Part shown: piece after piece, positions 12,601-36,949 of the stretch
Layout of the letters: every line of letters begins with the position of its first letter
Numbering within the stretch: the first letter of the stretch is position 1
NCBI GenBank assembly: GCA_947034895.1
Contig: OX344764.1
Coordinates: 21,452,001-21,516,000 of the forward strand
DNA from: Rhytidiadelphus loreus
Taxonomy: Eukaryota > Streptophyta > Bryopsida > Hypnales > Hylocomiaceae
Direction of reading: 5' to 3'
Length of the DNA: 64,000 nucleotides
Position numbers and translations under genes: made by a program
The notes under the pieces: generated by a model
Database searches by the model: none
Seen by the model: the letters and a program-made list of their open reading frames with translations, nothing else
What the model was told of the DNA's origin: nothing

Positions 12601-14566
12601 AAGCAAGAGGAAAGTGGATACGACTTCGGCATCACAAAGCCCAGATCAGAATGCAGGATTCTCACCTGTAAAGGGGTTTCATCGTCACCACCTTCACTGA
12701 GTGTGGCCATGAGATGACCCCATTCCGTGTTCATGCCCACCCCGGTAACAAGCATCAGTCCGCAGCCGTCCTGGACCTTGGTTCCCGACAGAAGGTAGGG
12801 ACTATCCTCATTGACTTTCACCGGTTCGCTTTCTCCTGTCATGCTCGACTCGTCAATGGACAGCCCACATCCTGAGACATACAACCCGTCCGCTGGAACT
12901 TGATCGCCAATGCCTAGATGCACTATGTCGCCTACTAAGAGCTCGAAGATGAGCACTCTCAGGCGCCGGCCATTGCGTGTCACTTCAATGAAGATTTTCT
13001 TCTTCTCGGCTTCCAAATCCCGGAATTGAAGCGACTGCTGGTAGTCGCTAGTAGCAGTCACCAATACCACAAGCACGATGCTAAATCCAATGCCTGCGCC
13101 GTCATACCATCCCTCCTGCCACCCCTCGGTAATGACACCGATGATGAGCGAAACAGCTGCACACACGGCCAGAATGACCAGGGTCAAGTCATGCATGGCC
13201 TCCCACACAAACACCCAAAAGCCTTTGGGCGGCTTTTCTGGATACGTATTCGTCCCAAAGACTTCACGTCGCCGAGTGAGTTCGTTCTCGACCATCTGCA
13301 GGCCCTGCTTCGCGGTGGTTTTCAGCTTCTGAGCTAACCCCGTGACTCCACCCAACTGATCCAGCGTGTGCGACTCTCTTTTCTCAACCAAACGTGCGAG
13401 CTGTTTTGCCCCCACCCCATAATCATTGTTCACTTGCTCGACGACTGCTTCTTCATGCGGGTGTTTCGAACCCTTTATCACTGCAACCACATTTCCAACC
13501 ATCCATGGTATTCCAACCCATCTAAGCAATTGAATGTCGATCGAAACTGACTCGCCATCACATGCATTGATGAAATAAAGAATTATAATGACAGAGCACT
13601 ACCCAGCACTTAGGTTAGCAATTTAGCACCTTTAAGCAGCATGCACGGAGGAAAACTACATCAATGCGAGAGGTAATAAACTTACAACCATTAATTCTGG
13701 ATACAGCTTTGGCGGCAGCACCAACCTTACGAAATTTACACCTATTTGCCTGCCAGAATTAGAGCAGAATATCCTTGGAATCATCAGAACAGAAAAGTAG
13801 TAGCCATGCTCAAAGATGGACAGAAGGTCACTTGATTTGTCAGATACCTACTTGCACACAATCATAGACACTGCACCGAACCTCCATGCTCTAGTAGACG
13901 TACTCTAATAGAAGTCAGGTCAGGCATCGTGTTGGCAAACAGCCAGTTAAACTGTCTGCGGAGGCGATTAGTACGCAGTATAACGCGCACAGGCATCAGT
14001 TTCCCATGGTGAGTGCTCCTAGGACAAGTCTCACCAGCTTAAAATATTACTCGCGGTTCCGACGAGTACTCAGAATGTGCAGGCACTTTAGACATGAGAA
14101 CTCTTCTAAATCAGACTACTATTGCATCTATCAAAATTGGGAGTCCAAACCAAAATTTCGGTTGGGTTAAGTCCGAGTAAGCCGAAGCGAGTTCCTGAAC
14201 CGAATTGAAGAATTCTGTTCGCACAACATTACACTCCGACGATGAACATTACATGTAATCCTGCTTGGAGACGGTAGCATGGCAGACTTGCGTTACTCTG
14301 GAAGTCGGTAATGCAAAAAAATGAGAGCCACGGAGCAGAAACAAATGACGCACCTCCATTGCAGCCACCCGCTCTTTCCGTTTCTCCAAATCGGCACAGT
14401 ATCGGAATCGGCGGGTGGCATTCAAGGCGAGACTGAACTTACGCCATGTTTCCAGCGATTCAGGGTCACCGCCCTTGTGAGGAATCTGGAAATTCCTCAT
14501 CGAAGTGAGATCCTCCAGTCGAGGGCCTAGCCCGCGCGGCGAACAGCCGTCCTCTCCGTCCGGCAT
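9604..14566 (-). CDS. ACA: Autoinhibited P2B-type Ca2+-ATPase (calmodulin-regulated calcium pump)
   Basis: Nine exons splice in phase to 1055 codons: 14566-14354, 13749-13686, 13480-12666, 12464-11493, 11346-11200, 11077-10922, 10672-10501, 10368-10070, 9933-9604. The pump exports cytosolic Ca2+ using ATP. An N-terminal basic amphipathic segment near residues 40-66 ([16 protein letters not shown]) is the expected calmodulin-binding autoinhibitory region. Actuator TGES lies in exon 3, PEGLPLAV near 427-434 in M4, phosphorylated Asp in CSDKTGTLT at about 470, nucleotide-domain KGASE, hinge TGDGTNDAP near 765, and M6 [18 protein letters not shown]. Length and short C-terminus match the plant ACA family. 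The small second exon (ANRCKFRKV...) and its donor are the least certain junctions, but phase 0-in/phase 1-out fits both neighbours. The start is the first in-frame ATG before the conserved N-terminus. The family assignment is secure; orthology and membrane location (plasma membrane or vacuole) are not. Confidence 0.96.
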
Positions 14567-14657
14567 TGCAAATCGAGGATTCCAACCCCTTCCAACGTCA
14601 CCTGCTCGCTTCCAGACTTCTACATATGCACTACGAACAGCGTCGCACAAGTCAGCT
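14567..14657 (-). promoter_or_regulatory. 5' UTR exon of the Ca2+-ATPase with a start-stop uORF
   Basis: A 3' splice site (CCATTTTGCAG) ends at 14658, so the first coding exon probably begins at 14657. Ninety-one untranslated bases precede the ATG at 14566. Within them an ATG is followed at once by TAG (14635-14630), a minimal uORF that could stall initiating ribosomes. The same frame stays open upstream of the chosen ATG, so an N-terminal extension is not excluded. Confidence 0.5.
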
Positions 14658-15099
14658 CTGCAAAATGGCGAGACAGCCCTGGTCAACGTTAGGGTTCTGT
14701 ATCCACGCAGTCCCATACAAATCATAGAGCTGGCAAGGAATGCGACCACGCTGTGAAGGGAGCACGTGCCTACACGTTCAAAATGTACAAGAAAGAACTC
14801 AATCCCGTTTCCCACCGTATCCAGGCAGTATTGATGTCCAAGAATTGCAAGGTTGGAGACCTATTTGGGAGATTCGGCACCAAGCAAAGCAAACAAAAAG
14901 TGCACACATAGTTGAAGGCAGGGTCTATATCAATTAAAGACCAAGCCCAAAGGCAGCATCACTGCCGCATCAGGTGAGAAAGAAGTCTCCTCAAGTGCCC
15001 AAGAAGTCAGCGAGCGACATCGGTTGACGAACTGCACCAGCTGAGAAGTGGGAAGAAGGAAAACGGCAACGAGGGCTTCAATTGGGCGAGCACATAGAG

Positions 15100-19536: not shown

Positions 19537-19574
19537 TTAACCCCTAAAGGACCATTGTTCCTTGGGGGGACAAA
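19537..19574 (-). mobile_element. Left stub of TTAA-element A2, split by the 17.4-kb transposon
   Basis: TTAACCCCTAAAGGACCATT opens a subfamily A element. After 38 bases it is interrupted, and the rest continues at 36937. Comparison with the intact A copies supports the joined order: all share a GGGACAA or GACAAAT segment followed by GGCA(G/T)GT-like text at this place. Confidence 0.75.
19562..19574 (+). repeat. 13-bp target-site duplication, left copy
   Basis: TTGGGGGGACAAA here is identical to 36937-36949. The bases just outside the pair differ on both sides, so 13 bp is the full extent of identity. The two copies bracket the transposon exactly. Confidence 0.8.
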
Positions 19575-19635
19575 CAGGGTTGCTAGCGTGCGAGCATGTG
19601 AGTGTGAGCCTGTGAGCCTGTGAGCCCATGAGCGG
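19575..19635 (+). repeat. Left terminal inverted repeat with GTGAGC array
   Basis: CAGGGTTGCTAGCGTGCGAG is followed by ATGTGAGT, GTGAGCC, TGTGAGCC, TGTGAGCCC and ATGAGC, a tandem series of six to eight base units sharing (G/T)GAGC. Likely transposase-binding sites. Confidence 0.7.
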
Positions 19636-19938
19636 GAATTTTTTTTTTGAAAAAAATGTTTGAAGGACCTATCACCGTGGATAAAGTTCATTTTTCGAGT
19701 TCCAAAATATCAATTCATTATTACAAAATTAAAGTCACCTACAAATTTTATTCATGATTTTCTGTTGCAACCAAGGTTGCACCATGCAATTATACGTGAT
19801 GGTTTAGGGTTCTTAAGCAACAAAACTGTAAAGCAAAATATATCATGCTCAAAATGTAGCCATAAAACACACAAATCCACTCATATTCAAAATCAACACC
19901 CAATACAACAACTCACGAGATATATCAATCACGTGAAT

Positions 19939-22900
19939 CTAAGTCATAGTAGACACAGTTGTGGAATCCTCTTCGCTAGATGACTCCGAAGTCTCTCCAC
20001 CCTCGGATGCACTAACATCTAAGAACTCTAAAACATTCAAAGCATAACTATCCCTACGCTTTTTTCTTTTAGAACAACCAAATTCTACAAATGTTGTTGC
20101 CAACTGCTCCGCATAAACTGGCAGATCAAAAGACCTCTCTGGACTAAGAAGAAGCATTCGATTCTGCATCGTTGAATCTGTTGACATCAACCCCTCACGG
20201 CTGCAAAAATCCAGTAAAGCATGTCACAATCATGAAACATGTATATTTGTATGCTAATATTCAATTCAGATCTCAGAAAACTTACTTACTGGATTTAGTC
20301 TTCCGAGCAAATTTGTGCACCACGATGTTCATTGCATCCGGATCTTGAGACGCTGCAACGTCCACAGAGTTTTCTTTCGTCACCACAATTGGATTGGTCC
20401 TCTGCATGGGAAACAAAATTTTCTTGAAGATATCCTTGTCCTCCTCCAAAGCCACAATGTGGCGTCCAGTTCCACGACAAGCCGTAATCGATGCACCTGA
20501 TAAAACAATATGCAATTTATTATTTGCAAAATTTGTACATGAAGTATAAATTCAATAAATAAATTATTGAATTGAAAACTTACCAGTAGCAGCAGTGCAG
20601 TCAAGAACTAAATCGCCTTCAATTGTTGTCCCTTCAATGAGAAACTGCAAAAATCTGGCGTCCTTCTCACGTGGTCCACGCCATGGTACTCGGTCATTCA
20701 TCAACATTGTATCCTCCGTAATATAGTTGATCAAAGTGTCGTCACGTTTGAGGTCAACTTTCGCTTTCTTCATGGCTTGTGTTTGATGGAATGTGAATTT
20801 CGATTTCCCTCCCCGGTCAAGGTCTTTCACCAATAGGGTGATCCCAAACTTCAGTGTCTACAAAAATTACATAAAAAAACACATCAGAAATGAATAACAT
20901 AGTACATTTTGCATGATTCTACTGAAATTAAAAAGAAATGTTTGAAGAATACCATGTTTGAAGGGTCCACGCCCGAAGTCAAGTGCACACGATTAATGCC
21001 TAACCACTCTTTCTTCTTCACGATTGGGTACACCTCACATAGTCCAGCAATGACGCCCTTTGCGTTAGCACTCCATGAGTGAAATACCACAACACAACCA
21101 TGGTCCTGTAAATGTTTCTCTGCAAAATGAAAAGCCTCTTGAATTCCTTCATACTCTTTATCGGCGTTCCACTTTGGCACAAGATCTGTTGGAAACGACA
21201 CCCCCGGGACGGGTAGATTTTCATGGCAGTCAAATAAAATTAGATCTACTCCAGGCTGACAAGTCACTTCACCGCCGTACTTTCGAACCTTCTCAGCTGA
21301 CAACTGCATACAAATATTATGCCATTACACAACAATTAATATATATTAAAATCATAACATGCAATACAAATAATGAACTTGAACATTCAAGAGGAGTTTA
21401 TTTACCTTCTCTAAAAACTCCATGAGATCTTTGTAGCATGTCCTCCCTTCTTTATCCTCGTTCTCCATCACATCATTGATGGACACGTTCAGGATCAATT
21501 CTGCAGAGTTAACCTCATCATCATCCCCAATGACGATGACTTCAGTGCCTTGCGTGAGCATTTCCTCAGTGAGCTCTGGCAAAATGGCCTTCCTCTTCAC
21601 TCCACTACGTGAGGCAGATTGCATTTGAGAGCCCTGGTCCACTGTTGAGGATACCGGAACTTGGTCAGTGCCTTCAACCTTCTTCTTTCCTTTGCCTTTT
21701 CCCTTCCCCTCCTTTTCAGCATCCTTCTCCTTCTCCGCCAACTTTGCCAAACGCTCAACTTCCTTCTTCTCCTTGTTTGCCCTGATCTCTTGTTCCTTGC
21801 CCTCTTTCTTCTTATCAGCAAGCATTCTACGTGCAATAGCCCTCTTCTTCTGAATGTCTGATAGATCGGCAAACTCCGGCACCTCTAAATCAATAACATC
21901 AAGGCCATCAAATGACTTCCAAAGCCACACCTCTGTTGGATGAGTGAATGTCACGGGGCAATCCAAATACCACCCTCCTCCAGTAAGATTTGCAGTGGTA
22001 AACGTTCGAAGCTGCCCCGCTGAATACATACACTCCGGTGAACTTCGATCCAACCATGAGGACAAGAAAGGTGGAAGGTCCTCTCGTAATAAAGCTTTCT
22101 TTGCTACAAGCTCAAGCTTGAAGTACCTGACAAATGAACAAAGATGAAAACACTCAATCACCATCAATTAAACATCCTTTACATTGTGCATTCAAATTGT
22201 AGGACAAGTACATCAACATTTGACAACCATTTCAAAGATAACAAGAAGTGAATGACATCACAATGAAGTACATTATATCAAAAAAATTGAATGGTTCTTA
22301 TAATTAATCATAGTACGTCAACTTCTTATCCATTCTCATATTTGAATTTCGTCTCCTGAGTACACTAAGAAAAATAACCAGGAATTGTTCATTCACAACT
22401 TTGAAAATATTCTAAATTCAAAACTCACAATCAAATAATATAATAATTTAATCATTCTCATTCATATTACAACATCATAGCGTGCATCTCCAGAACATGG
22501 AATAATCACTGTAGGCCATGAAAAAAATATGAAAAAAAAATATGAAAATTGCTGACAAATTTTTAAGAAAACCGAAAGTGAGAGTACCACAAGGTACTCC
22601 TCAAACCTCCGTCGGGTCCGACGGAGGTTTTTGGAGTACCTCATGGTACCCCTACTTTTGGTTACATCATGATAGAAATTTAATTCACTACTTAAAAATA
22701 ATTAAATTTAACAAAAGGAGAATTCACATTGCCTACGAATCTCTTATAATGAAGATAAGAAAAGATGCAAAATCAAATTAATCTTACCGAAAAAGAACTC
22801 TTCGCACGGCAAGGTCCGATCCATCATAACTTGAGAAGGAGTCTGACTTCTTGAAAGAATTTGCCCCCTTCAAAAATGGCCCAAAGCCTTGCTCCCATAT

Positions 22901-25900
22901 TTTTCTTCGCCATCCTTCAATGTACTGTGCAAGTGATTCTGGCTCAAGTGGGACATCCATGCTGATTTGAAGGTTGTCCTTGCTCACAACGTTTTCAAAG
23001 TACTCTTGAGCAACATCTTCAATCTGCAAGAGTATTAAATAAATTCATATTCACAAGGTTATAAAACATATGTAACAATCAAAAACCAGATGCACTACAA
23101 AAAGAAATGAAACGAGAACATGACATATGACATTTTTAAATTTAAACATGCTTGAACTTACCCCAGACCACCACACACACTTGTGTAGGAAGGGCAACAA
23201 TTTTTCTTCAGAAACTGGCCTTGGTGGAAACTTTCGTGCTTCCCGAGAAGGCATGGAAGAATTCCACCATTTCAAATACTTCAACTTCTGGATTGATGTC
23301 GTGTTACATGTTGCAACCATTTGTAGCTTTTCAAGTGTCATCTCTGGAACTTCATTGCAGGTCCAATGCTTCTCAACCTACAAAAACAGATTGGTAATTC
23401 ATCAGAGATAAACCAAAAAAAGAAAAGGACTGAAAATAAAAAATCATATATAACACTTACCTCCTCAAGAAATTCAGGACCTAGTGCTGGATTTGCCACA
23501 GTTAATAACTTCCCCATCTTCACATACAGCTTGGTAGACTTCTCCTTTGCTCCAGACCTCATGGCATTCGCAATCCCCTGATCACTCTTCTCCTCAAAAG
23601 GTGTGATCTCATTATATTTCCGTGCAGCACTATCCGCAGCTTGAGAAATCTCTTGCTGCAGTATTGAAAAAATATATCAATTTAAAATTCTCTTCAAAAT
23701 CGAAACACAACAATGAACCATGATTAATATAAATGAACCAAATAAAAGATAATTATGAAACATGGTCCTCACTCTGAAATTGAAAGCTGTAAAAACGTCG
23801 ACAAGCATGGAGTACCATGTCTTCCTCCCAGATTGCCCGCCACAACGTTTCCTTTCAGAAGGTCTGAGCATCTCCATGAACTTTGCCAATGGCAGTCGGC
23901 CATATTTTTGTACACGGTAGAGTGTGTGCACCAAGTTCGTCTTCACATGAGAATCCTCGGTTGACCTAAAACAAAATAATTTCGTTTAGGCAATCAGGCT
24001 TTTGAAAAAAATCCAATCCACAAAGATCAAAGTTTGGAAAACAATGCTCAATTCAACTTACACTTTGATGAAGAAAACTCACTTATTAATGTCATGCATG
24101 ACTTGCATGACCAATTCGATTCTGCCTTTTGTTTCAAGAATAATGCAGTCCACGGAGATGTGCCAATTTGGGTCAACAGGATAACGCCGTGTAATATGAC
24201 TCATCCATGCAATGCGACGGTGATTTCCGTCGCACACAAAGAACTTGAGGTTCTTCATAAACTTCAGCTCAGGGTTCGATTCTACAAACTTGTTGAAATC
24301 ATCATTCGCTTGCTTCCACCACGGGTCCCAACGATTGACCTCATCTTCCGTGAACTCACAACTCTCTCCAGCCTCATTTGTAGTAGACACATAGAACACC
24401 GCTGCTCCCTCACGGTATCCGTGAACAAACTCTTGCTCAAGCTTCAATAAGTCAGAAGACAGCGTTGGCCTTACCATAGGCATTGGAATGAGTCTACAAA
24501 GTGGAATTCGAAGTCTTGAGTGTTTGTCAGGTTTCATTCTCAAACTTGCGATAGTGGCTACAGAGTCCACCTTCTGCAACCGCCGTAGTTCATCCTCGAG
24601 CAACTCTTTCTCCTCGTCATCATCGTCAATGTCCTCCACCTGATAATCTCCATCATCTTCAGCTCCAATCTCCGGTTGCTCTGTCTCGTTAGTCCCAGGT
24701 GTTTCTTGTCGTTGTTCGTTTTGAGACAAAATGATTGGTGACTCGTCCACCTGTAAATCCCAAAATAATTTTCAAATGTCACTTTCAAATAATATGAAAA
24801 CTATTCATATACAAAAAATATTCTAAGTTCTACGGAAAATAGTATGTAACACATTCCAAAAAAAACATCTCCAAAGTAACAAGAGGCATTCATATTATAT
24901 ATATCAAACAACAATTAATTATGATTTTCATCAAAAACGGTTTTTTAGACAACTCATAGAAAATATACTACATTATCATTCAATCAATGTCAACACTGCC
25001 TTCTGAGTCCGAACAAAGGTGGATCAAAACCACCTCATGCCTATGTGCAGGTGCACTACAAACACGTGGGCAGGATTTAGGACCCATCGGGCTTGAACGC
25101 GAAACCCAATCATGTCTACGTGAAGGAGCACTACAAACGCATTGGCAAGATTTAGGACCCCATGGGCTTGAAATAGACACTGATGACTCTGATCCCGAGC
25201 TACACTCTTCTTTAGAGCTATACTCAGTTTCAGAGCTTTCATCAGAAAATACTGGTAGCCTCCTCTTCCTATTCTTGGAGACACTAACATGACTATGCAT
25301 GGGTACCTCCAATTGATCTGCGGCACGATCGCATGCGTCTAAAATATCCCCTAGACTTACCACGTCAATCTCATCAACTGCCAAAGACTCATTGCACAAA
25401 TCCGGATCTTGAACTATAGGAGTTTGGGGGAGTGATTTCTCCACAGACTCAACAACCTCCTCCACTGCGGTTGTCACCATTGACGTAGAAGCCTCAACAC
25501 ATTTCTCTCCTATAACTTCCATCTGCAAAAATTATAAAATTTATGTTAGCATATCTTTCAATCTTGGCATTCAAAAATAATAATATATGACAACAACTAA
25601 TAGTAACCATGAATATTGCAAAGGAATACAATCATTTCAATGAAGATCAATGATTGTATAATTGTACAAGAATTAAAATACTAGACTTGAAAAGAATATT
25701 TGGACTCGCTAGTCTTCAATGCTTGGAATTGAATAATTATGTTTGAAAAAGAGAAATTCAACAATAATTGTATCATTATAAACATTTAACAATTGAAATC
25801 ATACAATGAATCTAATGAAGACATGTAATCACTTAATCATGCAATATAGACCTCTAAATATGTACCATCTTTTTTTGAATCACAATTTTTATTCTAATCA

Positions 25901-28900
25901 TATTTCATGTACCTTACATCATTTGTAGTCATTCTTTCAATAAACATTTTGCACTATCACAATGAAGTGTACTTTAATTGAAACCATAATGGACTTTAAA
26001 CATGAATAGTGAAAAAAATATTACTTATCATGTAATGGCCTCCTACCTTTCAAAAATTTATGCATATGGCATTTCATAATTTGATAGGAACTTTAAACAC
26101 ATTCCCTTCAGTATACTGAGACCACTCCAACCTCTCTATTTTGATTTCAAATAGGACAATATCATTAATGCTCTACTTGAATATCAAACACAAATCTGCT
26201 ACATGTTTCCAATGTTGCAACACTTGCGTAAGCAAATAAATTATTTCTACTTCAAATATAGTTCATTTATATGCAAGATTTTAATATATCCAACGTGATT
26301 TGTACAACATCAAGAAGAATGAGACTATTATAGGAACGCTTTTTTCCTTAGATCAATAAGAATTTCATTTGAAGAAAATGATTACTATTGCATGCATAAC
26401 TTAACAATATAATATCTCAAAGACTTGGAAGAATAGAACTTTAACAAAAGGCGATACATTAAATTTCAAGACACCTAATCATTAGCATGCAAAGAAAAGA
26501 AAATTGTTAATGCACTTTAGGAAGTTCTATTGAAGTTGAAAAATCTCTTTGTATTGACCGATATCAAGGGATCGATGAGGTCCCCCAAAAACATCCGTCG
26601 GACCCGACGGAGGTATCTAGTGATCTTCACACTACCCTTGAAATCGGTCAATATGTAGAGATCGAGCAAAATTATATCCTAAGTTCTTAGAGTCTTTCTC
26701 TCAATAAAGGTCATAGAGGATATCAAAGGGAATATACTAATAATATTAAAAAAATGAACCAATAAAATATAGAATTCATAATTTCATTTACAAATCTTGG
26801 CTTATCATTAAAAGGTTCAATGAAACCACACTGTCTGTATAGAGAATTATTGAGATTTTTCTACATGAAAATGTTCGTAATGAATTTTGACTAAGAATTT
26901 CTTGGACCTCTTATTCACTATTGCAATCGGGTTAAATAATATTATACAAGTATAATAGCTTCAACTGCCAAAACTAATAAGAGTTCTTTTCATTTGTTTT
27001 TAAAAAAATAAAAAAATAAAAAAAAGATTTAAAAAATAAAAATAATAATAAAATATTTAATTAGAGTGAGTGACAATTTCTATACTTCTGGATTCAGTCG
27101 ACCAAAGGTCTGGTCGACGGCCACAGCGATCAGGTTCTCGTCTTCGATCAAATTTTCATTTTCAACGGCCACCGCGATCAAGTTCAAACCCGTCGTGACT
27201 GCTGCGACCGGGAGGATGGAACCATCGGGGGGAGAGCTCCATCAAAAAACTAGTCCCGGCAGGACAGGAGAGAAGATGAATCGGTCAGATTGACCGATTA
27301 TGGGAGTAGTAGCAGCTACCTCCCAAACCCCAGTCGGACCCGACGGAGGTTTTGGGGGAAGCTACCGCTACCCCCGAAATCGGTCATTTTCCAATAACGA
27401 CTTGAAAATCAGAATCAAAACAGACCTCTCAATACCAATGTCTAAAATATAAATTTTGTCTATCTTATTTAACAGGCCTTCCGGTTGATCAATAATCCCT
27501 GAACTTGCGGTGATAGCTCCTCTCTCTGGAGAGAAGCGGATTGGCATAGCAACAATGGCCGTTACATATTTCATGAAAGACTACTGAAGAAACAAGCTAA
27601 GTAAGATTAACGGATTTTGGCTATACAATTTTTTTTAAATTTAAACCGCAGGTCATTCGGGAGCGACAAGCAGCACGGACTTCGTAGCATCAGTGCAGCA
27701 TATAATTGGTCTACAGTCATCTTAAAGTTATATGAGAGAAAAAGTTTTTTTTGAAATGTTCTTCTTCGGTGACCGAAAATGGGGGTAGCAGCAGCATCCC
27801 CTGAAACCTCCGTCGGACCCGACATGGGTTCTGGGGGAAGCTGCCGCTACCCCCATTATCGGTCACTGTAGATGTTTTCAAGAATTTTGCTTCATGGATT
27901 TGCTATCAGGCTTCCAACTCTCCTAATCATAACTAACCTTAAGCAAACTGATTATGGAAGTTGGACCTTGCTCAATCAACCTAAAATAGAAATCAATGAA
28001 GATTCAATCGGCACACTTGGGCTAGGAGCAGTTCGGCAGAGTCAAGATAGTTAAGATTCGGCCCTGTTGGACAGGTTGTGAGTCAACACAGTCGGCCAGG
28101 TAGACAGCTTACTCTCCGGCGAAGAAGACTACAAGCATCTACGAGAATATAAACAACATCAGATTATATTATTTAATCTAACGATGAATTCAGCCGCGTC
28201 GACCTGTGGATTTCTGGCATAGCTAATGTGCTCTTGTGATCGACCTGTGGATTTCTGGCATAGCTAATGTGCTCCTGTGATCGACCTGTGAATTCAGCCG
28301 CGTCGACCTGTGGATTTCTGGCATTTCAAATAGGGTACCCTGTTTGACAAACTAATGTCTGACAGCACGTCTACATTTCTAATTCGGTGGACTCTATACA
28401 TGACTTCACAGGACTAGCAACGTCCCGATTCAAAAATCATCAACAATCTCTGAATAAAGCAATACAAGAGTAAAAAATGAAGGTATAATTCATCATACCT
28501 GAGACTGTGCTGTTGGGTGCTCCTGGTCAAGTGAGCAGTCCTCTCCACTCTGTTGAGATTCCTCACGCATTCTACGACTCCGCGTAAGCCGGGTTGAAGT
28601 AACATCACCTTCTCGCTGTGTAGACATGTTCAGTGACTGAGCAAGTTAGTAGAATTCCAATGAAAATCACTAAGATGGCCCGCAAGAATATGCACATTCT
28701 GGAATTTGTTTAGATATCTGTCGTATTATATACTCTCTGCGTGCGTCCCTACGTCCTGTTGATCCGCCGTCCCAGCTTCATCACCAGCTGCCCACCGATA
28801 CCGTCCCTTAAATTTTAACCTCACAGCTGTCGTCGATTTCTGCAGGTTCGCTGGGGAAAGTCTCCGAAGACCTTGGTGGCCCCACAGGTGTCGTCATTTT

Positions 28901-30642
28901 CTGTTAGTTCGGTGGGTAAAGTTTCCGAAGACCTGGGTGCGCTGGAAGGGGATCGAGGAGCAGCTGGTGATCAGTCTGCAAGTGGGAGCGCACTCTCGGG
29001 CGGCAGCATGGCTACTGCATGCGAGTTCGAATCGTCCGTGCCAATATTGGCGGCAACGCAGTGGAACTGCTAATTCAATCCAAGCAACTTTGAAAAAAAT
29101 GCTAAATCGATCCGGGAATCTTGACAGGCAACATGGGGCATTTTGTTGTGACTAAAAAAAATGGCAGACATATGGATACGTGTTACACAGTCCCATGCAT
29201 TCTGACAGCAAGGACGGGAATAAAGCCTGATTTCAGATAAGACACGACATGGCTGAATTTTAATACTTTATACTGTGTGCATGAGAAATAATACAAGAGG
29301 ATCTTCACTTTACAACGAATTTAGACGGTCCAAATTTCCGAGTATATTTAATTCAATAGCAGATAATGGGAATATTTAGTCATTTAAATAGCATGTTTAA
29401 CAATTCTAATCCTATTTGTACTGCTGCCTATTGCTACATGCTTGTAGGTAAGCTGCAATGTCAAGTTCATATTTCATTAAAAATCAATGAACTTTAGTAG
29501 ATAACTAAGAAGTTGCAATGGAATTCATCCATTTAGGGCGTTAACTTTATATTTTTCTGCCTTAAATCCCAATGAACGTAGTCAATTCACTCAATTGTAG
29601 ATGTAACTTCAAATTTGAGACTATGGAAATTTAAAGTTTAGAACATGAAGGGTAATCCTAAAAGTTTGGTACAACATGTATAGACTTTAAGTTGATGGAT
29701 TGTTTTATCTATAACATAATAATTATGCATTCATCTAGAATAGTGACACCTACATTGAAAGCCCCATTTTCGTGATTATAAATAAAATAGGACATTATAT
29801 ATAGTCAAGATACAACACTTTTAATAACCAAATTAACCAAATGCCCTTAAATTATTAGACTCTTTACATATTTTCATAATTTATTGAGAATGTTATAGTT
29901 CTTAATCATAAACATTGTACATTATTACTATTATTTTGATTACTTTTAAGAGAATCCATCATAATGATGCATAAACTAACATGAAAAAAATCAATTTTGA
30001 ATGACATATATAATTCAAAGTGTATAAACTAATGATAACTTTGAATTGTGCTATAATTATATGAGATCAATAAACAGACATGAATTCCTAATGTTCTTGA
30101 ATATTCCAAATGTTATCCAACTATGATGTACATCATGGTACTATTATTAATAATATCATCTATTGCAAAATAGGAGCTAAGGGACAATGTCACACACTTG
30201 AATTATGAAGGTGTTAAAAGAAGATACCTAATAAAGATTGGCAGGCTAATCATTTGAACACCATTTATGATTAACGTGAAAGGCATTTACATATATACGT
30301 ATATATGGATGAAGTTTAGAAGAAGAAAACATTTTCGAAGTCCACTGAAGAGGAGCCAATCCTCATGACCTTGTCCAAGTTCTAATATTAGGAAAAGCTA
30401 ATGAATTTATGAAAAATCAAAGTGTAAGCTTCTTATAAAAGATTACTTACATGTGGAACCCCTTTCGATGAAACATGTCGTGCGATACCTCTACCCTCCG
30501 GCATGTCTTGCACCAAATCTATGCTTTGCACTTGAACATTCTCATCCTCGGCAGTACCTCCATCTTCAAAGAGAAGGACCTTGCGCAGTTCGGCCGATGC
30601 TGACTGACCTGTCTTTGACAAAGTTCTCTTTCCACGATTCAT
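19939..30642 (-). CDS. ParB-like / beta-class DNA methyltransferase-like fusion protein of the transposon
   Basis: Ten downstream exons splice in phase without a stop to 1108 residues: 24750-24083, 23965-23773, 23655-23461, 23377-23162, 23023-22788, 22126-21406, 21303-20953, 20857-20584, 20496-20286, 20200-19939. Numbering from the 24750 exon: acidic linker to about 60; ParB/sulfiredoxin-like core with VCDGNHRRIAW at 172-182; a region with KRCGGQSGRKTW and LKYLKWW; a Lys/Glu-rich coiled coil in the large exon; then a methyltransferase-like domain in beta-class order. The motif IV position reads LILFDCHENLP (DCHE at 768-771) instead of DPPY. Motif I reads GDLVLDCTAATGASITAC (near 943-960) with GRHIVALEEDKD after it. 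A Lys/Ser-rich tail ends it. Upstream exons are less certain but all phase 0: 30642-30451 (NLS-like MNRGKRTLSK start), 28636-28499 (or a start at 28627, MSTQREGD) and 25522-25034. The most likely role is DNA binding or modification for the element, in the nucleus. Catalysis is doubtful given the altered motifs. Confidence 0.82.
22570..22663. mobile_element. Hairpin element, copy 1 (methyltransferase-like gene intron)
   Basis: The 94-bp palindrome begins AACCGAAAGTG and ends CTTTTGGTT. Its centre is CCTCCGTCGGGTCCGACGGA, a perfect inverted core with almost no loop. It sits wholly within the intron between exons 22788 and 22126. Confidence 0.85.
24980..25522 (-). other. Ser-rich exon with duplicated GPKSC motif and an alternative stop
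   Basis: A strong acceptor (TTTTGCAG) precedes ATGGAAGTT at 25522. The open frame runs 180 codons to TGA at 24980-24982. It encodes acidic and Ser-rich text with a duplicated block (GPKSCQCVCSAP, GPKSCPRVCSAP). Read to the stop it yields a short product. Cut at the in-phase but weak donor GAG|GTGGTT (exon end 25034) it joins phase 0 to the ParB-containing exon at 24750. It could also be skipped, since the exons on both sides are phase 0. Confidence 0.55.
26553..26652. mobile_element. Hairpin element, copy 2 (intron)
   Basis: About 100 bp, with ends ATTGACCGATATCAAGGG and an 18-bp complement differing at one base. The core is CCGTCGGACCCGACGG. It lies in the intron between 28499 and 25522. 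Confidence 0.85.
27291..27386. mobile_element. Hairpin element, copy 3 (intron)
   Basis: 96 bp, starting TGACCGATTATGGGAGTAG and ending CTACCCCCGAAATCGGTCA, with core CAGTCGGACCCGACGGAGG. Same intron as copies 2 and 4. Confidence 0.85.
27769..27866. mobile_element. Hairpin element, copy 4 (intron)
   Basis: 98 bp, starting GTGACCGAAAATGGGGGTAG and ending CTACCCCCATTATCGGTCAC. The core CCTCCGTCGGACCCGACATG is mutated on one arm. It lies about 0.4 kb from copy 3. Confidence 0.85.
28186..28324. repeat. Short tandem repeat within an intron
   Basis: TCGACCTGTGGATTTCTGGC occurs three times and TAGCTAATGTGCTC twice. GAATTCAGCCGCG appears at both edges. It lies just 5' of the 28499-28636 exon's donor, in the intron. 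Confidence 0.7.
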
Positions 30643-31136
30643 TCTAGATCTCTTGATTGCCTTAGGAGATGAGAAATACAAAGAAACACGTCTCTTACGC
30701 TTCTTAGAGAGCTCCGGTAGTAGAAAAGAAAAACTATGACTACTTGAATGCATGAGTGGAGAACATATTGTATGAAAACTATCAGAGTGAAATACAAATG
30801 CTAGTCGTCTCCCAAAGCATCGAAGACATTGTGGTATAGACAATTGAACTCACCTTATATCTCTTCAAAAACCGTGTGCAATTCTCCTAAAACGCGTTAC
30901 CCTATACTAGGTTGTTGACAATTCTGTCCACGAGAAATTGAGAACTATTAAACTTGACAATGACTTCAATGCGCTGTCTATTTTCAAAATAAAGGTAATA
31001 GAAATAGCACTCTGACCATGACTTCTACCTAGTGGTACACTCTATAATGAATATGTGCAATTTGCACTATTTTGGCCAATTGTCTTTTTGGTATAGTCAT
31101 ATACTATTTAAATCCTAATAAAACCAGAGTCATTTT
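30643..31136. promoter_or_regulatory. Upstream region of the methyltransferase-like gene
   Basis: The frame of the 30642 exon stays open upstream as far as about 30843 (basic text KKRKRRVSLYFSSPKAIKRS), so the protein may begin further out and carry a nuclear localisation signal. No TATA box can be assigned with confidence. Confidence 0.35.
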
Positions 31137-31815
31137 TAACATTCCTGACATACACTCACTAGGGATTTACAACATGCCTGACTCTTACACTTTATGCATG
31201 TAGAATATGGCTGACACAGCTGCACTTAGCATTTATAGTATATGCCTGACACAGCCGCACTAGGCATTTACAATATGCCTGACACTGCCGCTTTAGTCAT
31301 ATTGAACATGCCTGACACAGCCGCACTTTGCATTCACAATATATGCCTCACATAGCTGCTCTAGGCATTTACAATATGCCTGACATTGCCGCTTTAGTCA
31401 TATTGAACATGCCTGACACAGCCGCACTTTGCATTCACAATATATGCCTGACACAACGCACTAGGCATTTACAATATGCCTGACACTGCCGCTTTAGTCA
31501 TATTGAACATGCCTGACACAGCCGCACTTTGCATTTACAATATATGCCTGACATAGCCGCTCTAGGCATTTACAATATGCCTGACACTGCCGCTTTAGTC
31601 ATATTGAACATGCCTGACACAGCCGTACTTTGCATTCACAATATATGCCTGACATAGCCGCACTAGGCATTTACAATATGCTTGACACTGCCGCTTTAGT
31701 CATGTACAACATGCCTGACAAAGCCGCACTTTGCATTTACAATATATGCTTGACACAGCCGCCCTAGGCATTTACAATATGGCTGTCACAGCCAAAGTTT
31801 GCATGTACAACAATT
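31137..31815. repeat. 101-bp-period tandem array between the two divergent transposon genes
   Basis: GCCGCTTTAGTCAT recurs at about 31288, 31389, 31489, 31590 and 31691, giving a period of 100-101 bp. Each period consists of three related sub-units of about 33 bp sharing ATGCCTGACA(C/T)(A/T)GCCGC and (T/G)GCATT(T/C)ACAATAT. The array occupies most of the shared 5' intergenic space, so it may hold promoters or binding sites for both genes. Confidence 0.9.
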
Positions 31816-32038
31816 ATAAATGGCTATACTAATGGTGTGCTTGGCATGTGGTATAGTAGTGGCTCTATTAAATGATGGAAGTTGTTGAAAGAGTCCATTC
31901 CATCCTGTCTTTCACTTCTTGTATAGTTCGTAGAGGTACTACGTAATGCAAGTGCTTGTGGTGGAGTGAATTCTCCATAAAGTGACACTCTAGATTGAAT
32001 TCTTTGTTATCAATTTTCTTGAGTGTCTATTGTTGAAG

Positions 32039-35000
32039 ATGGCTTGCATCCGTGTAGATGGTCATGATGTTCCACTTGTGTTTCCAGTAGATGATGGAGA
32101 TCAAACTAGGGTGACGAGCCATTTACTTCATGTTCGCTTCAGGTTCATTGAGTCATCCATCTATGTCGAAGAAGAAAGGAAGTCCGAATCAGGAGAGTTG
32201 CAGCAGTTAGTTCTAGTAGTGAAGTCAATAGAAGAAGGAGGACACTGCTGGTACCTTGCAGCTGGGAACTATCGAGCTTACGGGTTACCTTTGTCCATGT
32301 TAGCCGCTCCAACAGAGATTCGTAGTGGACAATCAGATCCATCTACAGTGGATATGCCGTATGTCACTCAGTCAATATCAGGAAGTCCACCTCCTGAAGT
32401 GTTTCGTGTCCTCCGTAATAGTGCAATTCTTCGGACAGTGAAGGTTGAGAAACTTGATCCTATTGTAGAATTGTCCAGCGAATCGGAAGGAGAGTCCCCT
32501 GATTTGACACTTCATAAGCAAGCATGCTCAGTTCCAAATACATCAAATGAAATCAACATTTTAAAATCATTTTCTGGTACCCTTTCGCATAGTCCCAGCC
32601 AGTCTTTGTTGTCTCGCCCTCCTGTGCATCCAAACATAGTCAACCGAGTTAGTATAATGGATAGTTTGAGGAGACTAGGAAGTATGCATCGCTCCAGGAA
32701 CGAATTGTCAACAATGGATATGAGTAGCATGAAACACCACCGCGTGCAATATCTTCCACCAGTTTTTGACGGGAATGTCATCTTCGAATTGCCACCATGT
32801 GGTTCATTGTCGTCTTCATCGGCAGCTAGAAACTTGGAGGGAATGGACAAGCGGTATGACGGACATCCGTGGTGCAAGTTGGTGACAACCAACATTCACA
32901 ACTCCGAGAACTTGAGGTTTCGTAAGTCTTATTGTACTGGTCATCTTGCTTGTATGAATACAGAGTGTGATTACTTGAAGAGGGCTGGGAAACGCAATGA
33001 AACAGAGTGGACTGGTTATACAACTTTTCCTTTTGTAGTAGGAGAGATTCCTCCTAAAGATTGTACTCTTCTTTGCAAGGTTTGCAAAGTAACCCCTACA
33101 TGCCTTAGTACATGTAGTGGTAGAATTTACTATTGCTATTCCGACAATCCAAAAATGAGTAGGGCCGCTATTCATTTTGGAGTTCATGCTCATCCGGTAG
33201 CAAAAGGCATGTATAGAGATTCTACAGAGAAGATCTGTGAAATCATTGCAGAGCAAGTGGCTAAGACACCCAAGGCTACAAACTCTGCAATTGCATTGTC
33301 TGCTAGCAAGGACTTTCTAACTAACTATCTATTTCACAACGGAGAGGGGGAGAAAGAGATGTTGAGGGGCGAGGAACTAGAAGAGGTCATGGATCGGTTC
33401 CAATACTTAAGCAGTCCAAACATACGGAATTTAATATCTTCATTTCGGTCAAACAATCGTGGAGGAGTCATTGACAATATCATGACTATGAAGAAGGAGT
33501 CGAAGTTCGAATTCATACATGACAGTGTCTTCCCTGGTCAAGGCAAAGAGAAGGTTTACATTTTTAAAATGCTCACGGAAGGACCTGGTAGTGGAGTGGA
33601 TTTGGTGAAGCGTATGCAACCCGGAGGTGATCTTCAAAATGGGTGGATGATGTTTGACCACGTGAAGCGCGTGAATGAGTGGACAACAATGGCTTGCCAT
33701 GTGTATGATCCTGAATACAAGAAAGTGATGACAATTGCAACATGTGATATGCAATCCGAAGATACTGAGATCCAAGTGCAGTTTTGGAGTTCTTTGAATA
33801 CTGTGATGTCACGATATCGTGTGGATCACCCGAACTTCAAAGGGTTTATGGCAGATAGCGCTATGGCTAATTGGAATGCGGTGCGAATTGTTTACGGGAG
33901 TGGTTTGGCGAATGAGAAGATGGAAAATCGTGAAAGAACCTGTCTTCTACATTGGACTACCTCCCTGCAAAAGCACACGCAGAAATACATCAAAGAAGCA
34001 TTCCAGTCGCAACACATTATGCTATGCAAGCAATATAAAGATGCAAAGACTATGGAACAAGTAGAGACACGATACTTGGCAATTCGGTCATGGTGGTTGT
34101 CATCTGGAGCTGCCAAAGATGATGCACTTCTTCACTTAGACCATTGGCTAGCCTTTTGGCATTTTCGTTACCGGCAGTGGGGAGGGTTCATGCAAATGGT
34201 AAGTACAATTTTCACAAATAATTTGTTTGCATTGTAGAAACAAATTTGTAGAATTATATTTTTTCATTCTTCCTACAAGTACGGATTGATTAGTTTTAGC
34301 GAAGCATTTAAGAGTACCAGTTACTTAAATTTTTTTATTTATTTTTTATTTTTTCTGTCCTCAAACCAAAAATGGGGGTACTGCAAGGCACTTCCAAAAC
34401 CTCCGTCGGACCCGACTGAGGTTTTGGGGTTCCTTCTCGGTACCCTTGATATTGGTTCATGGAACGTGAAAAAAAAAAAAAAAAAAAAAATTATGGAAGA
34501 GAAAAGTCTCAAAGTTACTGTGAACTTTGCTATTTTGTAGAAGGGTATTTTGTAGAAGATAATTTTTTTTTATTATGATGTTTTAGTATTTGCTTGACAT
34601 GATTTCAAATTATGTGAAATGACATATAAAAATAAATAAAAAATTTGGTATGATTAGTGAATTATAAAATTGAATGTAAAAATTAAAAATACTCTATGGA
34701 TGCATTTGTAGGATTTAACGTTGGAGGAGATGGCGGATATGCCATCGTGCAACTTGTCAGAAACAGTGCATAACAAGTGGCTTCAAATGTCTGGAAATCG
34801 CGGAAACAATTTGTTCAACGCCACTTGCGATGACAGTATTCGTGCGTGGATGCAAATGACAAATTATCGTGCATACTTGAAGGGGCATGCATCTGGATCT
34901 GGTCCTTCAAAGGGGGAATTGAAGCTTAGAGCTGCAAGACGAAGCGGAGACCCTAAGAAGATTGCAGAGGCGCTAAATACATTACCTGGAAGTGAAGGTG

Positions 35001-36100
35001 TAGGAAGTCGTATACCGCATTTAGAAGGAGAAGAAATTTTTGGAAGCACAAAGAGGAAGCTGGATGTACCAATTGGTGATGCTGGAGACTCACATAGACC
35101 GGATTAAGTCAACTTCTCCCAACCTCGTGTTCGGACGAGATCCACAACGGCTTCAATTGATTCTTCTGGGGACAAAGGTAAACTCCCTGAAGTGAACACT
35201 TCTAGACATGTGGCAGTTGCTTTTGAAAGTGATTGCGACACTTCAAAGTGGCACATAGCCAGAATCAACCACAAATCAAATGCAAAATGTTCTGCTCAGC
35301 AACGGGGTTCAAATGTGAAGTGCACGGCCAAAGTTGCAAGGGGACGGAAGGGAACCCCAGCTCCCACATATCGCGGGAGAAAAGAAGATTATGGGAGTAA
35401 GCGGGAGGTGGTGGTTGACTTCTGGTTTTGTGGTGACGATATTGAGCGATGTGTGAAAGGGAGCAAGCGCAAGTGGGTTCTAGATTGGCCAGAGGTACCA
35501 GAGGTCTGGCCGGTTTTGACCGGAACTGACTTGAGCCGGGATGAGACTTTATTATTGCAACATGGTGGATTTCATCTCCAGGAGTGTCCTGTACTATCAC
35601 CACGTCGACTCTTCAATCTATCTAACGTATTCAAGAGTGTGTTCTATGATCAACCACTTCCAGCAGATGCAAGTGTATATCCAACGGTTCGAAACAATCG
35701 AACTATACGACGAATTGCAAATGCACCAACTATAGAACAACGGAACAAGTGGGAGAGTGCTAGAAATGTCAAAGGAGAAATTTTGGGAGTGACATTGCTG
35801 CCTTTTCCGGGACTAGGTGCAATTGTGTCACTACAGACTGGATTTGATTATAGCAAAAACGTGTACCGAATCACAGTTGGAATGTACCCCTCTTGTACAT
35901 GCCCGGACTACACAAACATGGCTATTTCAGCCATTGGTGGCCGTCAGCAATACGTAAATTGCAAGCACTTGTACTACTTGTTCAGGTACTTTTGCAAGAT
36001 GGACATCCATGAGGATAAATTCATTCATGCACCAAGTTTTAGCTTCAACGAGTTGAAGCTTCTATTACTTAAAGCAGGGATCATCACAATTTCAGAGTAG
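32039..36100 (+). pseudogene. SWIM-finger transposase of the transposon, with one in-frame stop
   Basis: Exon 1 is 32039-34198 (720 codons, start MACIRVDGHD; donor ATG|GTAAGT). Exon 2 is 34712-36100 (462 codons plus stop; acceptor TTTGTAG). Exon 1 carries a Cys-rich N-terminal zinc-binding region (CTGHLACMNTECDYL; CTLLCKVCKVTPTC). A DDE-type core follows, with candidate residues in WMMFDHV and CDMQSED (Asp570), then FMADSAMANW (Asp606) and CLLHW (Cys635-x2-His638). The SWIM zinc finger CTC...CKH spans 35894-35968. The intron contains hairpin copy 5. Exon 2 is interrupted by TAA at 35105-35107; the same frame reads on without other stops for 330 codons, so this looks like a single CAA-to-TAA change. 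Mutator-like or KDZ-like affiliation is inferred. A natural two-part product from a second start is possible but unlikely. Confidence 0.85.
34364..34457. mobile_element. Hairpin element, copy 5 (transposase intron)
   Basis: 94 bp, starting AACCAAAAATGGGGGTAC and ending GGTACCCTTGATATTGGTT, with core CCTCCGTCGGACCCGACTGA. It lies inside the single intron of the transposase gene. Confidence 0.85.
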
Positions 36101-36866
36101 TGTTGGCTACAGTGCCTTCTGTACTTAAATCGTATTGTATTAATTTACATTTCTTCATTTGGATTTTCATTAGTTTTTCTTCCCATCATGTTTTTCAATT
36201 TCTAAATTTTTTTCCCCTGCATTCTCCAATTTTGGCTCCATATTTTATTTGTATTTTATTTTGTTTACTTTCCATTGCTAAGTTATTCATGTTTTTCTTC
36301 AATTTTTTGTTTATTTTTTATTTCGATTCTTTTGGTTTTAAAAGGCCTGAAAAGTAGGTTGATAATTTGTTTGGCGTGACTTTTATTATGTTCATGAGGT
36401 TCAAATATTCTTGTGAGAGGTACTTGAATTAGATAGCCACGGTTTTGAATTGTACTATCCCGCCCCAAAATTAAAGTAGTGGATAGAGTGTCTAGGTTAT
36501 AGTTAATCATTAAATCAATGTTCATATAGAGAGCATATGTGGAGGTTAGGCAACACTCACTTCTGTTTTTGTGAGGATTATTTATTTAACATATGATGTT
36601 ATATTCTTGAAAGAATTTGTAAGTGGCAAGACATGGGAATTTCAGTTCTTAAACTAAAAGCTGAATTATGTACGACAAGTTGAAGTTGCCAAACTATTGG
36701 AAGAAGAAATTTGCAAACCTTAAAAAAAAAATCTCAAATACACGGTAATAGGATAAGCGGTCATAGGCCCCCAAAAAACTAAAAATAGTAAATTTTTTGT
36801 ACAATTTTCAAATTTTTTTATCCAAAGGAATTTTTGGGTAAAAAAGTTGAAAAAAAAATATTTCAA

Positions 36867-36936
36867 GGCTCCACGCTCACAAGCTCCATGCTCGCAGCTC
36901 ACAAGCTCGCCGCTCCAAGCTCGCACGCTAGCGTCG
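36867..36936 (-). repeat. Right terminal inverted repeat with GAGC array
   Basis: Read on the minus strand: CGACGCTAGCGTGCGAGC, then TTGGAGC, GGCGAGC, TTGTGAGC, TGCGAGC, ATGGAGC, TTGTGAGC, GTGGAGC. The unit length and GAGC core match the left end. Confidence 0.7.
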
Positions 36937-36949
36937 TTGGGGGGACAAA
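36937..36949 (+). repeat. 13-bp target-site duplication, right copy
   Basis: TTGGGGGGACAAA, identical to 19562-19574. Confidence 0.8.

Follow-up and report, generated by a model that had tools for sequence, protein, structure and literature searches.

A giant DNA transposon family of a green plant that pairs a DDE-like, SWIM-motif transposase with a ParB-like/methyltransferase-like protein carrying an altered active site

Related transposons and accessory proteins

The only direct precedent among the matches listed in a literature search on ParB-methyltransferase transposons and accessory genes is Sola1-1_Ec32 of Ectocarpus, a giant DNA transposon of 21.5 kb with a Sola-1 transposase (PMC12477816); the papers found were mostly those available without subscription, and a land-plant report is possible. 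On the strand opposite the transposase, Sola1-1_Ec32 encodes a protein of 1104 amino acids with ParB-like and N4/N6 DNA methyltransferase domains, and such genes of giant algal transposons were described as possible self-modifying accessory proteins (PMC12477816). The element described here, located in a 64-kb window (the whole stretch of DNA that was analysed), is likewise a giant DNA transposon with a ParB-like/methyltransferase gene opposite the transposase strand. Unlike the algal element, it has a DDE-like transposase with a SWIM motif instead of Sola-1, 10-bp target-site duplications and no Pfam transposase family, and its host is a green plant; the algal proteins were compared by description only.

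According to PMC6446971, Mutator-like elements have duplications of 8-11 bp, a DDE transposase, commonly a SWIM finger and in some cases a second antisense gene; their terminal inverted repeats are usually long, with lengths of 20-38 and 22 bp also tabulated. The present element agrees with these in its 10-bp duplication, in its terminal inverted repeats (21 bp, short but within the tabulated lengths) and in its second antisense gene; its putative DDE residues and SWIM-like finger, recognised by eye, may be further points of resemblance. It differs in that the 21-bp ends are short and imperfect and accompanied by GAGC arrays, and in the lack of a Pfam transposase or SWIM match. DNA transposons, KDZ elements among them, also carry TET/JBP genes (PMC12730594), which likewise places a DNA-modification-type gene inside a DNA transposon, but Zisupton-type KDZ elements have duplications of 8 bp instead of 10 bp and the enzyme family is different.

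Two further comparisons concern the accessory protein. VANC of the Arabidopsis VANDAL transposons is an anti-silencing protein that binds tandem element motifs in non-coding regions (PMC5735166). The present element shares with VANDAL an element-encoded accessory protein and same-orientation tandem short motifs; motif position differs and the proteins have no known relation. In prokaryotes, fusions of a ParB domain with an adenine methylase are described in PMC5512222, an arrangement that the partner resembles with its ParB-like and methylase-like parts. What is new here is the SWIM-motif DDE-like transposase without Pfam match, the green-plant host, the measured selection, the end arrays and the altered active site.

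Boundaries of the element

The first-pass annotation had proposed a transposon between matching inverted ends, which is confirmed: the element spans positions 19575-36939 (17,365 bp) and has imperfect inverted ends of 21 bp. The left terminal inverted repeat CAGGGTTGCTAGCGTGCGAGC (19575..19595, plus strand) recurs as the terminus of nine copies with both terminus motifs, in some with one or two changes, and exact 10-bp duplications lie outside; the right repeat, CAACGACGCTAGCGTGCGAGC as reverse complement (36919..36939, minus strand), ends at 36939. In the window, GGGGGACAAA at 19565..19574 is identical to GGGGGACAAA at 36940..36949. A flanking duplication of 13 bp had been claimed, but, as other copies with 10 bp show, the extra TTG on the right belongs to the end of the element itself and its counterpart on the left matches by chance.

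Among 11 copies examined, nine have both terminus motifs in the fetched stretch, and an exact 10-bp duplication was found in eight of these. In five it lies directly at the ends; in three it adjoins an outer left terminus, 1.5-1.9 kb beyond the inner one. For copy C3:74.9 no 10-bp duplication was found in the fetched stretch, and in two of the 11 copies one end was not found. Older copies might have been taken to have no duplication, but the three that were followed upstream have theirs at the outer left terminus, so that this was rejected for them; their inner left terminus retains just one or two GAGC units, the true left end being further out. Hence the termini and 10-bp duplications bracket other copies too. 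Segmental duplication of a single locus would explain the existence of multiple copies, and nothing beyond that existence speaks for it; with differing flanks, fixed termini and these exact duplications, it is hardly conceivable as a substitute for transposition.

Directly inside the ends are inward-reading arrays of GAGC, with five repeats spaced 8-14 bp apart on the left (19592..19633, plus strand) and eight repeats with a period of 7-8 bp on the right (36868..36922, minus strand). Nowhere else in the 64-kb window does one strand have at least four GAGC within 60 bp.

Copy number and co-occurrence of the two genes

Among the genome's 62 best copies of the transposase, 58 have the partner gene in divergent orientation within 40 kb (0.3 expected); one of the remaining copies has a partner at 45 kb and three have none. 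A scripted count with the methyltransferase exon alone, using 98 of its 150 hits, gave a divergent partner for 54 of the 62 top transposase hits (0.31 expected); one pair had another orientation. The rise from 54 to 58 reflects 14 hand-picked hits of the ParB exon, which alone has 150 scored matches in the genome. In other assemblies, at least five contigs with a transposase homolog have exactly the same length as a contig with a ParB-exon homolog (0.0035 expected), a comparison that drew on 120 of 614 ParB-exon matches.

In all ten other full copies each exon of both genes was matched, partly in some cases. The window copy differs from C4:19.2 at 1.05% of sites, and by hand count transposase exon 1 is stop-free in 29 of the 62 scored copies. 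The window thus contains one member of a large and recently active family of DNA transposons of the cut-and-paste type, whose host is a green plant. The earlier claim of two divergent multi-exon genes inside the element holds, and they belong to a real transposon family. Their near-constant travel together, with the partner conserved, suggests that the transposon needs the partner as a helper.

The transposase

Transposase exon 1 (32039..34198, plus strand) encodes 720 amino acids and has 51 homologs with 39-77% identity. Exon 2 (34712..36100, plus strand) carries an in-frame stop that is private to the window copy, the same place being stop-free in all ten other full copies; the intron was checked for splicing in the window copy only. 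By eye, two putative catalytic Asp codons lie within 33653-33667 and 33845-33874 on the plus strand, followed in exon 2 by a putative catalytic Glu in NLSETVHN (within 34748-34774) and a SWIM-like Cys/His motif of the form C-x-C...C-x-H (35891-35971).

No Pfam transposase family matched the 16 transposase members searched at E values up to 1, and the Pfam SWIM profile did not match the SWIM-like motif. The predicted structural model has Hermes transposase as its best match (E 4.6e-3, probability 0.87), followed by retroviral integrases, at low confidence; TM-scores for Hermes are 0.15-0.19, and none of the structural matches reached an E value of 0.001. Of the proposed DDE-like SWIM transposase, the D/D/E order and the SWIM-like motif can be recognised by eye, but no Pfam profile matches them.

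Structure of the partner gene

The partner gene, which combines a ParB-like and an N6/N4-methyltransferase-like part, occupies 19939..24750 on the minus strand, as delimited by its open reading frames and splice borders and by conservation across 11 copies. Its exons are 24750-24083, 23965-23773, 23655-23461, 23377-23162, 23023-22788, 22126-21406, 21303-20953, 20857-20584, 20496-20286 and 20200-19939, the last with the stop codon; a start exon upstream of 24750 was not found. The intron acceptors are AG in 9-11 of 11 copies, and the donors are GT or GC with at most one exception among the 10-11 readable copies. The spliced protein had no matches among 5.8 billion proteins, probably because the database entries are open frames of exon size; searched by itself, the ParB exon gave 614 matches.

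A third conserved open frame of 180 amino acids (24980..25522, minus strand) ends at the same stop in all 11 copies and may encode a separate protein or an alternative end of the partner transcript. One of the 11 copies has an internal stop in this frame and seven of the ten other copies have indels; among 19 pairs, dN/dS is 0.21-0.36 with a single exception at 0.52. A splice donor linking the frame to the partner gene was considered, but by eye the in-phase GT is absent in three of 11 copies. Another open frame, 30433-30849, has dN/dS values of 0.43-0.65 in nine of nine diverged copies and is not clearly coding.

The ParB-like part

In proteins of the ParB/sulfiredoxin superfamily, a G-x-H-R motif links a strand to a helix. 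The partner contains C-D-G-N-H-R-R-I-A-W (24205..24234, minus strand), in which CDGNH is near-invariant across 27 aligned sequences and the following R is present in most; the model of this part predicts, at low confidence (pLDDT 48), a strand at residues 169-173 and a helix at 179-189. The PHROG profile of a ParB-like partition protein gave weak matches to nine of the 27 members (best E 0.062). A Pfam search of the same members did not list ParB_N, and gave DUF1015 in five of 27 at 0.061. With hhalign, none of five ParB_N domains taken from small contigs matched, and the ParB exon profile found no relative in GTDB genomes. Foldseek (best 50 of 236) and VIA-align revealed no ParB fold, a result that excludes nothing. 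Homology to ParB is weakly supported, by the DGNHR motif and the weak profile matches.

The methyltransferase-like part and its altered active site

Judged by sequence, the C-terminal part of the partner is homologous to beta-class N6/N4 DNA methyltransferases. Pfam N6_N4_Mtase matches eight of eight partner members, with the window domain (23.3 bits) below the curated cut-off of 26.7; phage DNA methyltransferase profiles also match eight of eight, and the profile alignment to phage DNA methylases spans 228 columns. The best profile alignment is with DNA methylases of Cellulophaga, Tenacibaculum and Staphylococcus phages, and among viral contigs the profile found one weak relative. Four bacterial methyltransferases align by hhalign over motif I only, with probabilities of 4-22% singly and 36% together. 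The motif order is IV then I, as in the beta class. Homology to methyltransferases of prokaryotes or phages is supported, in line with the first suggestion.

In beta-class N6/N4 DNA methyltransferases the catalytic motif IV is [DNS]PP[YFW]. The corresponding strand of the partner, VDLILFDCHENLP (21211..21249, minus strand), aligns with DLPY in phage DNA methylases and, weakly, with the DPPY of DpnA. In 17 of 19 copies the position reads D-C-[H/Q/P]-E, and the canonical motif occurs in none of the 19. The DpnA alignment over this part is very weak (4.2 bits), and a MAFFT alignment contradicts the mapping by pairing DC with a GDCLE motif upstream of motif IV, so that the mapping rests mostly on the phage methylase profile alignment. 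Three phage beta-class enzymes have DLPY in motif IV, whereas the partner is altered, spliced and transposon-borne. Motif I, for AdoMet binding, is LDCTAATGASITACRGTGRHIVALEED, split by an intron (20438..20605, minus strand) and located by the Pfam match and hhalign; it reads AATG or ASTG as compared to AGSG or LGSG in the four bacterial enzymes.

Activity of the partner as an N6-adenine or N4-cytosine DNA methyltransferase marking the ends of the element, as first suggested here and as proposed for such proteins (PMC12477816), would agree with the homology, with the conserved motif I region and its following acidic residue, and with the adenine and cytosine present in the GAGC arrays. With DPPY replaced in 19 of 19 copies and the motif I glycines partly lost, we consider it improbable, and the claim that the partner modifies DNA is not borne out.

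Selection, decay and host methylation

Purifying selection on the partner is at least as strong as on the transposase: between the window copy and nine others, dN/dS is 0.097-0.13 for the partner and 0.107-0.161 for the transposase (19 of 55 copy pairs were used in all, skipping stop and gapped codons). The youngest copy pair, with very few changes, gives 0.89 for the partner. Stops occur in the partner gene of eight and the transposase gene of seven of the ten other full copies. Many plant transposons carry captured genes, so that a partner captured once as passive cargo would be nothing unusual, but this is very improbable for a gene whose dN/dS is no higher than the transposase's and which 58 of 62 copies have retained.

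The copies have an excess of C-to-T changes at CG and CHG, which suggests that they are methylated by the host. Since the copies carry this signature, lasting protection of its own DNA by the module, as initially envisaged, is unsupported.

Proposed role of the partner protein

The reading that we favour, with moderate confidence, is that of a SWIM-like DDE-like transposase accompanied by a divergent ParB-like/methyltransferase-like accessory protein that serves the element itself. Most likely it would do so as a binder of the GAGC arrays that face inward from both ends. Every copy read has an altered catalytic motif, and for this reason binding seems likelier than ordinary 6mA or 4mC methylation. 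Binding would perhaps be AdoMet-gated, and the end-bound protein would help to assemble the transposase or counter host silencing. The GAGC arrays could instead be transposase sites, and the one or two GAGC units at the inner left terminus of three older copies speak against such binding, although their true left end is further out.

A VANC-like anti-silencing factor that binds tandem element motifs and removes host cytosine methylation would fit the suggested CG and CHG methylation of the copies, and the same-orientation tandem short motifs at the ends resemble the VANC-bound arrays (PMC5735166). By analogy such a role is imaginable, yet VANC motifs are spread across non-coding regions whereas the GAGC arrays are at the ends, and the C-to-T signature shows that the copies become methylated at some time; we regard this role as unlikely, though worth keeping in mind.

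Extending the favoured end-binding role, it is tentatively conceivable, if somewhat doubtful, that giant transposons of plants depend on a methyltransferase, retired or re-tooled, that has lost DPPY chemistry and binds the ends at GAGC arrays as the transposase's obligate partner. The D-C-[HQP]-E protein would then possibly catalyse a different reaction or be a pure AdoMet-sensing DNA clamp.

The family adds a green-plant case to the algal ParB-methyltransferase transposons, and its many copies, measured selection and candidate binding array allow direct tests of what such proteins do. With the active site altered, homology should not be taken to imply 6mA or 4mC writing.

Results

The searched assembly comprises 407 Mb with five long chromosomes, and the window corresponds to C4:21452001-21516000. 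The element occupies 19575-36939, with the termini CAGGGTTGCTAGCGTGCGAGC on one strand and CAACGACGCTAGCGTGCGAGC on the opposite strand, and its target-site duplication is 10 bp long (19565-19574 and 36940-36949). Both terminus motifs were found in 9/11 copies within the stretch fetched for each copy. The exact duplication lies directly at the ends in 5 of these 9 and, in 3 more, 1.5-1.9 kb outward beside another CAGGGTTGCTAGC-type terminus, giving 8 of 9; the ninth shows none at the termini within its fetched stretch. The older copies C5:43.3, C1:74.1 and C4:21.6 (named by chromosome and Mb) have two left termini 1.5-1.9 kb apart, of which the outer bears the 10-bp duplication. The left 601 bases and the right 601 bases, used as separate queries, yielded 40 scored matches apiece, the best of 726 and 486 first-look candidates, respectively; because only these 40 per end were scored, element copy counts are lower bounds. 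Within the 64-kb window, at least four GAGC per 60 bp on one strand occur only at the two ends of the element, where five (left) and eight (right) inward-reading repeats are present; the corresponding counts in other copies are 1-6 at the scanned left terminus and 6-8 at the right one. Left of the element, the minus strand carries fragments of a calcium ATPase gene of the P type (11361-14860; Pfam Cation_ATPase, E1-E2_ATPase, CaATP_NAI), which include the N-terminal autoinhibitory domain of Ca2+-ATPases, a feature typical of plants. On contig C489, an rbcL frame shares 93% identity with a typed angiosperm-like sequence and is accompanied by further plastid-type frames. The rbcL and the ATPase mark the host as a green plant, and features of the rbcL suggest a bryophyte or streptophyte alga rather than a flowering plant.

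Genome searches yielded 62 scored matches of 1761 candidates for transposase exon 1, 150 of 1099 for exon 7 of the partner gene and 150 of 1427 for its ParB exon. A divergent partner is located within 40 kb of 54/62 transposase copies (median 10 kb; 0.31 expected), a count that used 98 of the 150 exon-7 matches and in which one further pair has a different orientation. With fourteen hand-picked ParB-exon matches added, the pairing rises to 58/62; the remaining copies are one with a partner at 45 kb and three without a partner. Outside this genome there are 51 homologs of the transposase and 614 of the ParB exon, and comparison of the 51 with 120 listed of the 614 revealed at least five exact coincidences in contig size (0.0035 expected). 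From these sizes we infer that the equal-sized contigs carrying the two homologs are the same contigs. Thirteen small contigs of the assembly (C62, C74, C174, C199, C234, C245, C293, C295, C308, C309, C318, C394 and C426) probably represent bacterial contaminants or symbionts; they carry ParB or N6/N4 methyltransferase genes of a typical bacterial kind, or rbcL genes at 58-59%.

The transposase gene (plus strand) has two exons. Ten exons of the partner gene (minus strand) were identified in the window, where its first exon was not found; across 11 copies its introns have AG acceptors in 9-11 and GT or GC donors in all or all but one. Every exon of both genes is matched, in part incompletely, in 10/10 other full copies. 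Stops interrupt the transposase in 7/10 and the partner gene in 8/10 of these, both genes being stop-free in 2/10; the stop in exon 2 of the window transposase is absent at that place from 10/10. Just upstream of the first exon found of the partner gene lies a third frame of 180 amino acids with a conserved stop (24980-25522, minus strand), which holds a duplicated SSPWGPKSCQ-type peptide and has no Pfam match. In the spacer between the two genes, 30433-31060 is the longest stretch conserved in three distant copies, and a minus-strand frame in it (30433-30849), with a dN/dS of 0.43-0.65, is not clearly coding.

The dN/dS values of the two genes were drawn from 19 of 55 copy pairs. For the partner gene and the transposase, respectively, they are 0.097-0.13 and 0.107-0.161 between the window and nine copies, 0.09-0.11 and 0.12-0.17 between C2:28.2 and five copies, and 0.19-0.28 and 0.23-0.33 for internal pairs of one older group; in the youngest pair (1.05% divergence), where very few changes separate the copies, they reach 0.89 and 0.44. 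The low values for the partner gene between copies thus indicate that it is maintained for function across the family, with individual copies decaying. C-to-T differences between copies are more frequent in the CG and CHG contexts than in CHH: 0.019-0.034 vs 0.004-0.006 in the youngest pair, 0.040-0.054 vs 0.011-0.015 in a second pair and 0.12-0.14 vs 0.08-0.09 in a distant pair. We read this excess as suggesting cytosine methylation of the copies by the host.

Among 16 transposase members, none matched a Pfam transposase family. For a model covering 720 residues (mean pLDDT 59), the top structural hit is the Hermes transposase (E 4.6e-3, TM-scores 0.15-0.19), and most of the next hits are retroviral integrases. 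These hits are compatible with a DDE fold, short of proof. Exon 2 holds, as judged by eye, a SWIM-like motif and the third acid.

In the N-terminal part of the partner protein, CDGNH is near-invariant. The commonest weak match is a PHROG ParB-like family (9/27 members, best 0.062); ParB identity was confirmed neither by Pfam ParB_N and PDB profiles nor by hhalign or a structural model of low confidence. The C-terminal part matches Pfam N6_N4_Mtase (best 3.1e-6) and PHROG DNA methyltransferases in 8/8 spliced domains, the window's own domain scoring 23.3 bits against Pfam, below the 26.7-bit cut-off. The partner profile found CcrM (4.7e-5) and DpnA (4e-4) in the PDB, and a longer profile aligned over 228 columns with three phage DNA methylases (probability 92-93%); with four bacterial methyltransferases from small contigs, alignment was restricted to the surroundings of the AdoMet-binding motif I, at low probability. 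In the longer-profile alignment D-C-H-E sits under the catalytic DLPY of the phage methylases, and in the PDB-profile alignment weakly under DPPY. MAFFT instead sets D-C against an upstream motif, so the mapping of motif IV onto D-C-H-E carries some doubt. The putative motif IV reads D-C-[HQP]-E in 17 of 19 copies, Y-C-H-E in one and D-Y-L-E in one; the canonical motif was found in 0/19.

Discussion

The pairing of a transposase with a ParB-methyltransferase protein is already known in kind, because such transposons have been published from algae, for example Sola1-1_Ec32 of Ectocarpus (PMC12477816). The moss family differs from these in its own transposase, its host and its active site, the last having been read in this family alone. 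The accessory protein is unlikely to be an ordinary 6mA or 4mC writer; its predicted binding to the element ends is an evenly balanced proposition. Very probably, these elements constitute a transposon family with a functionally maintained accessory gene.
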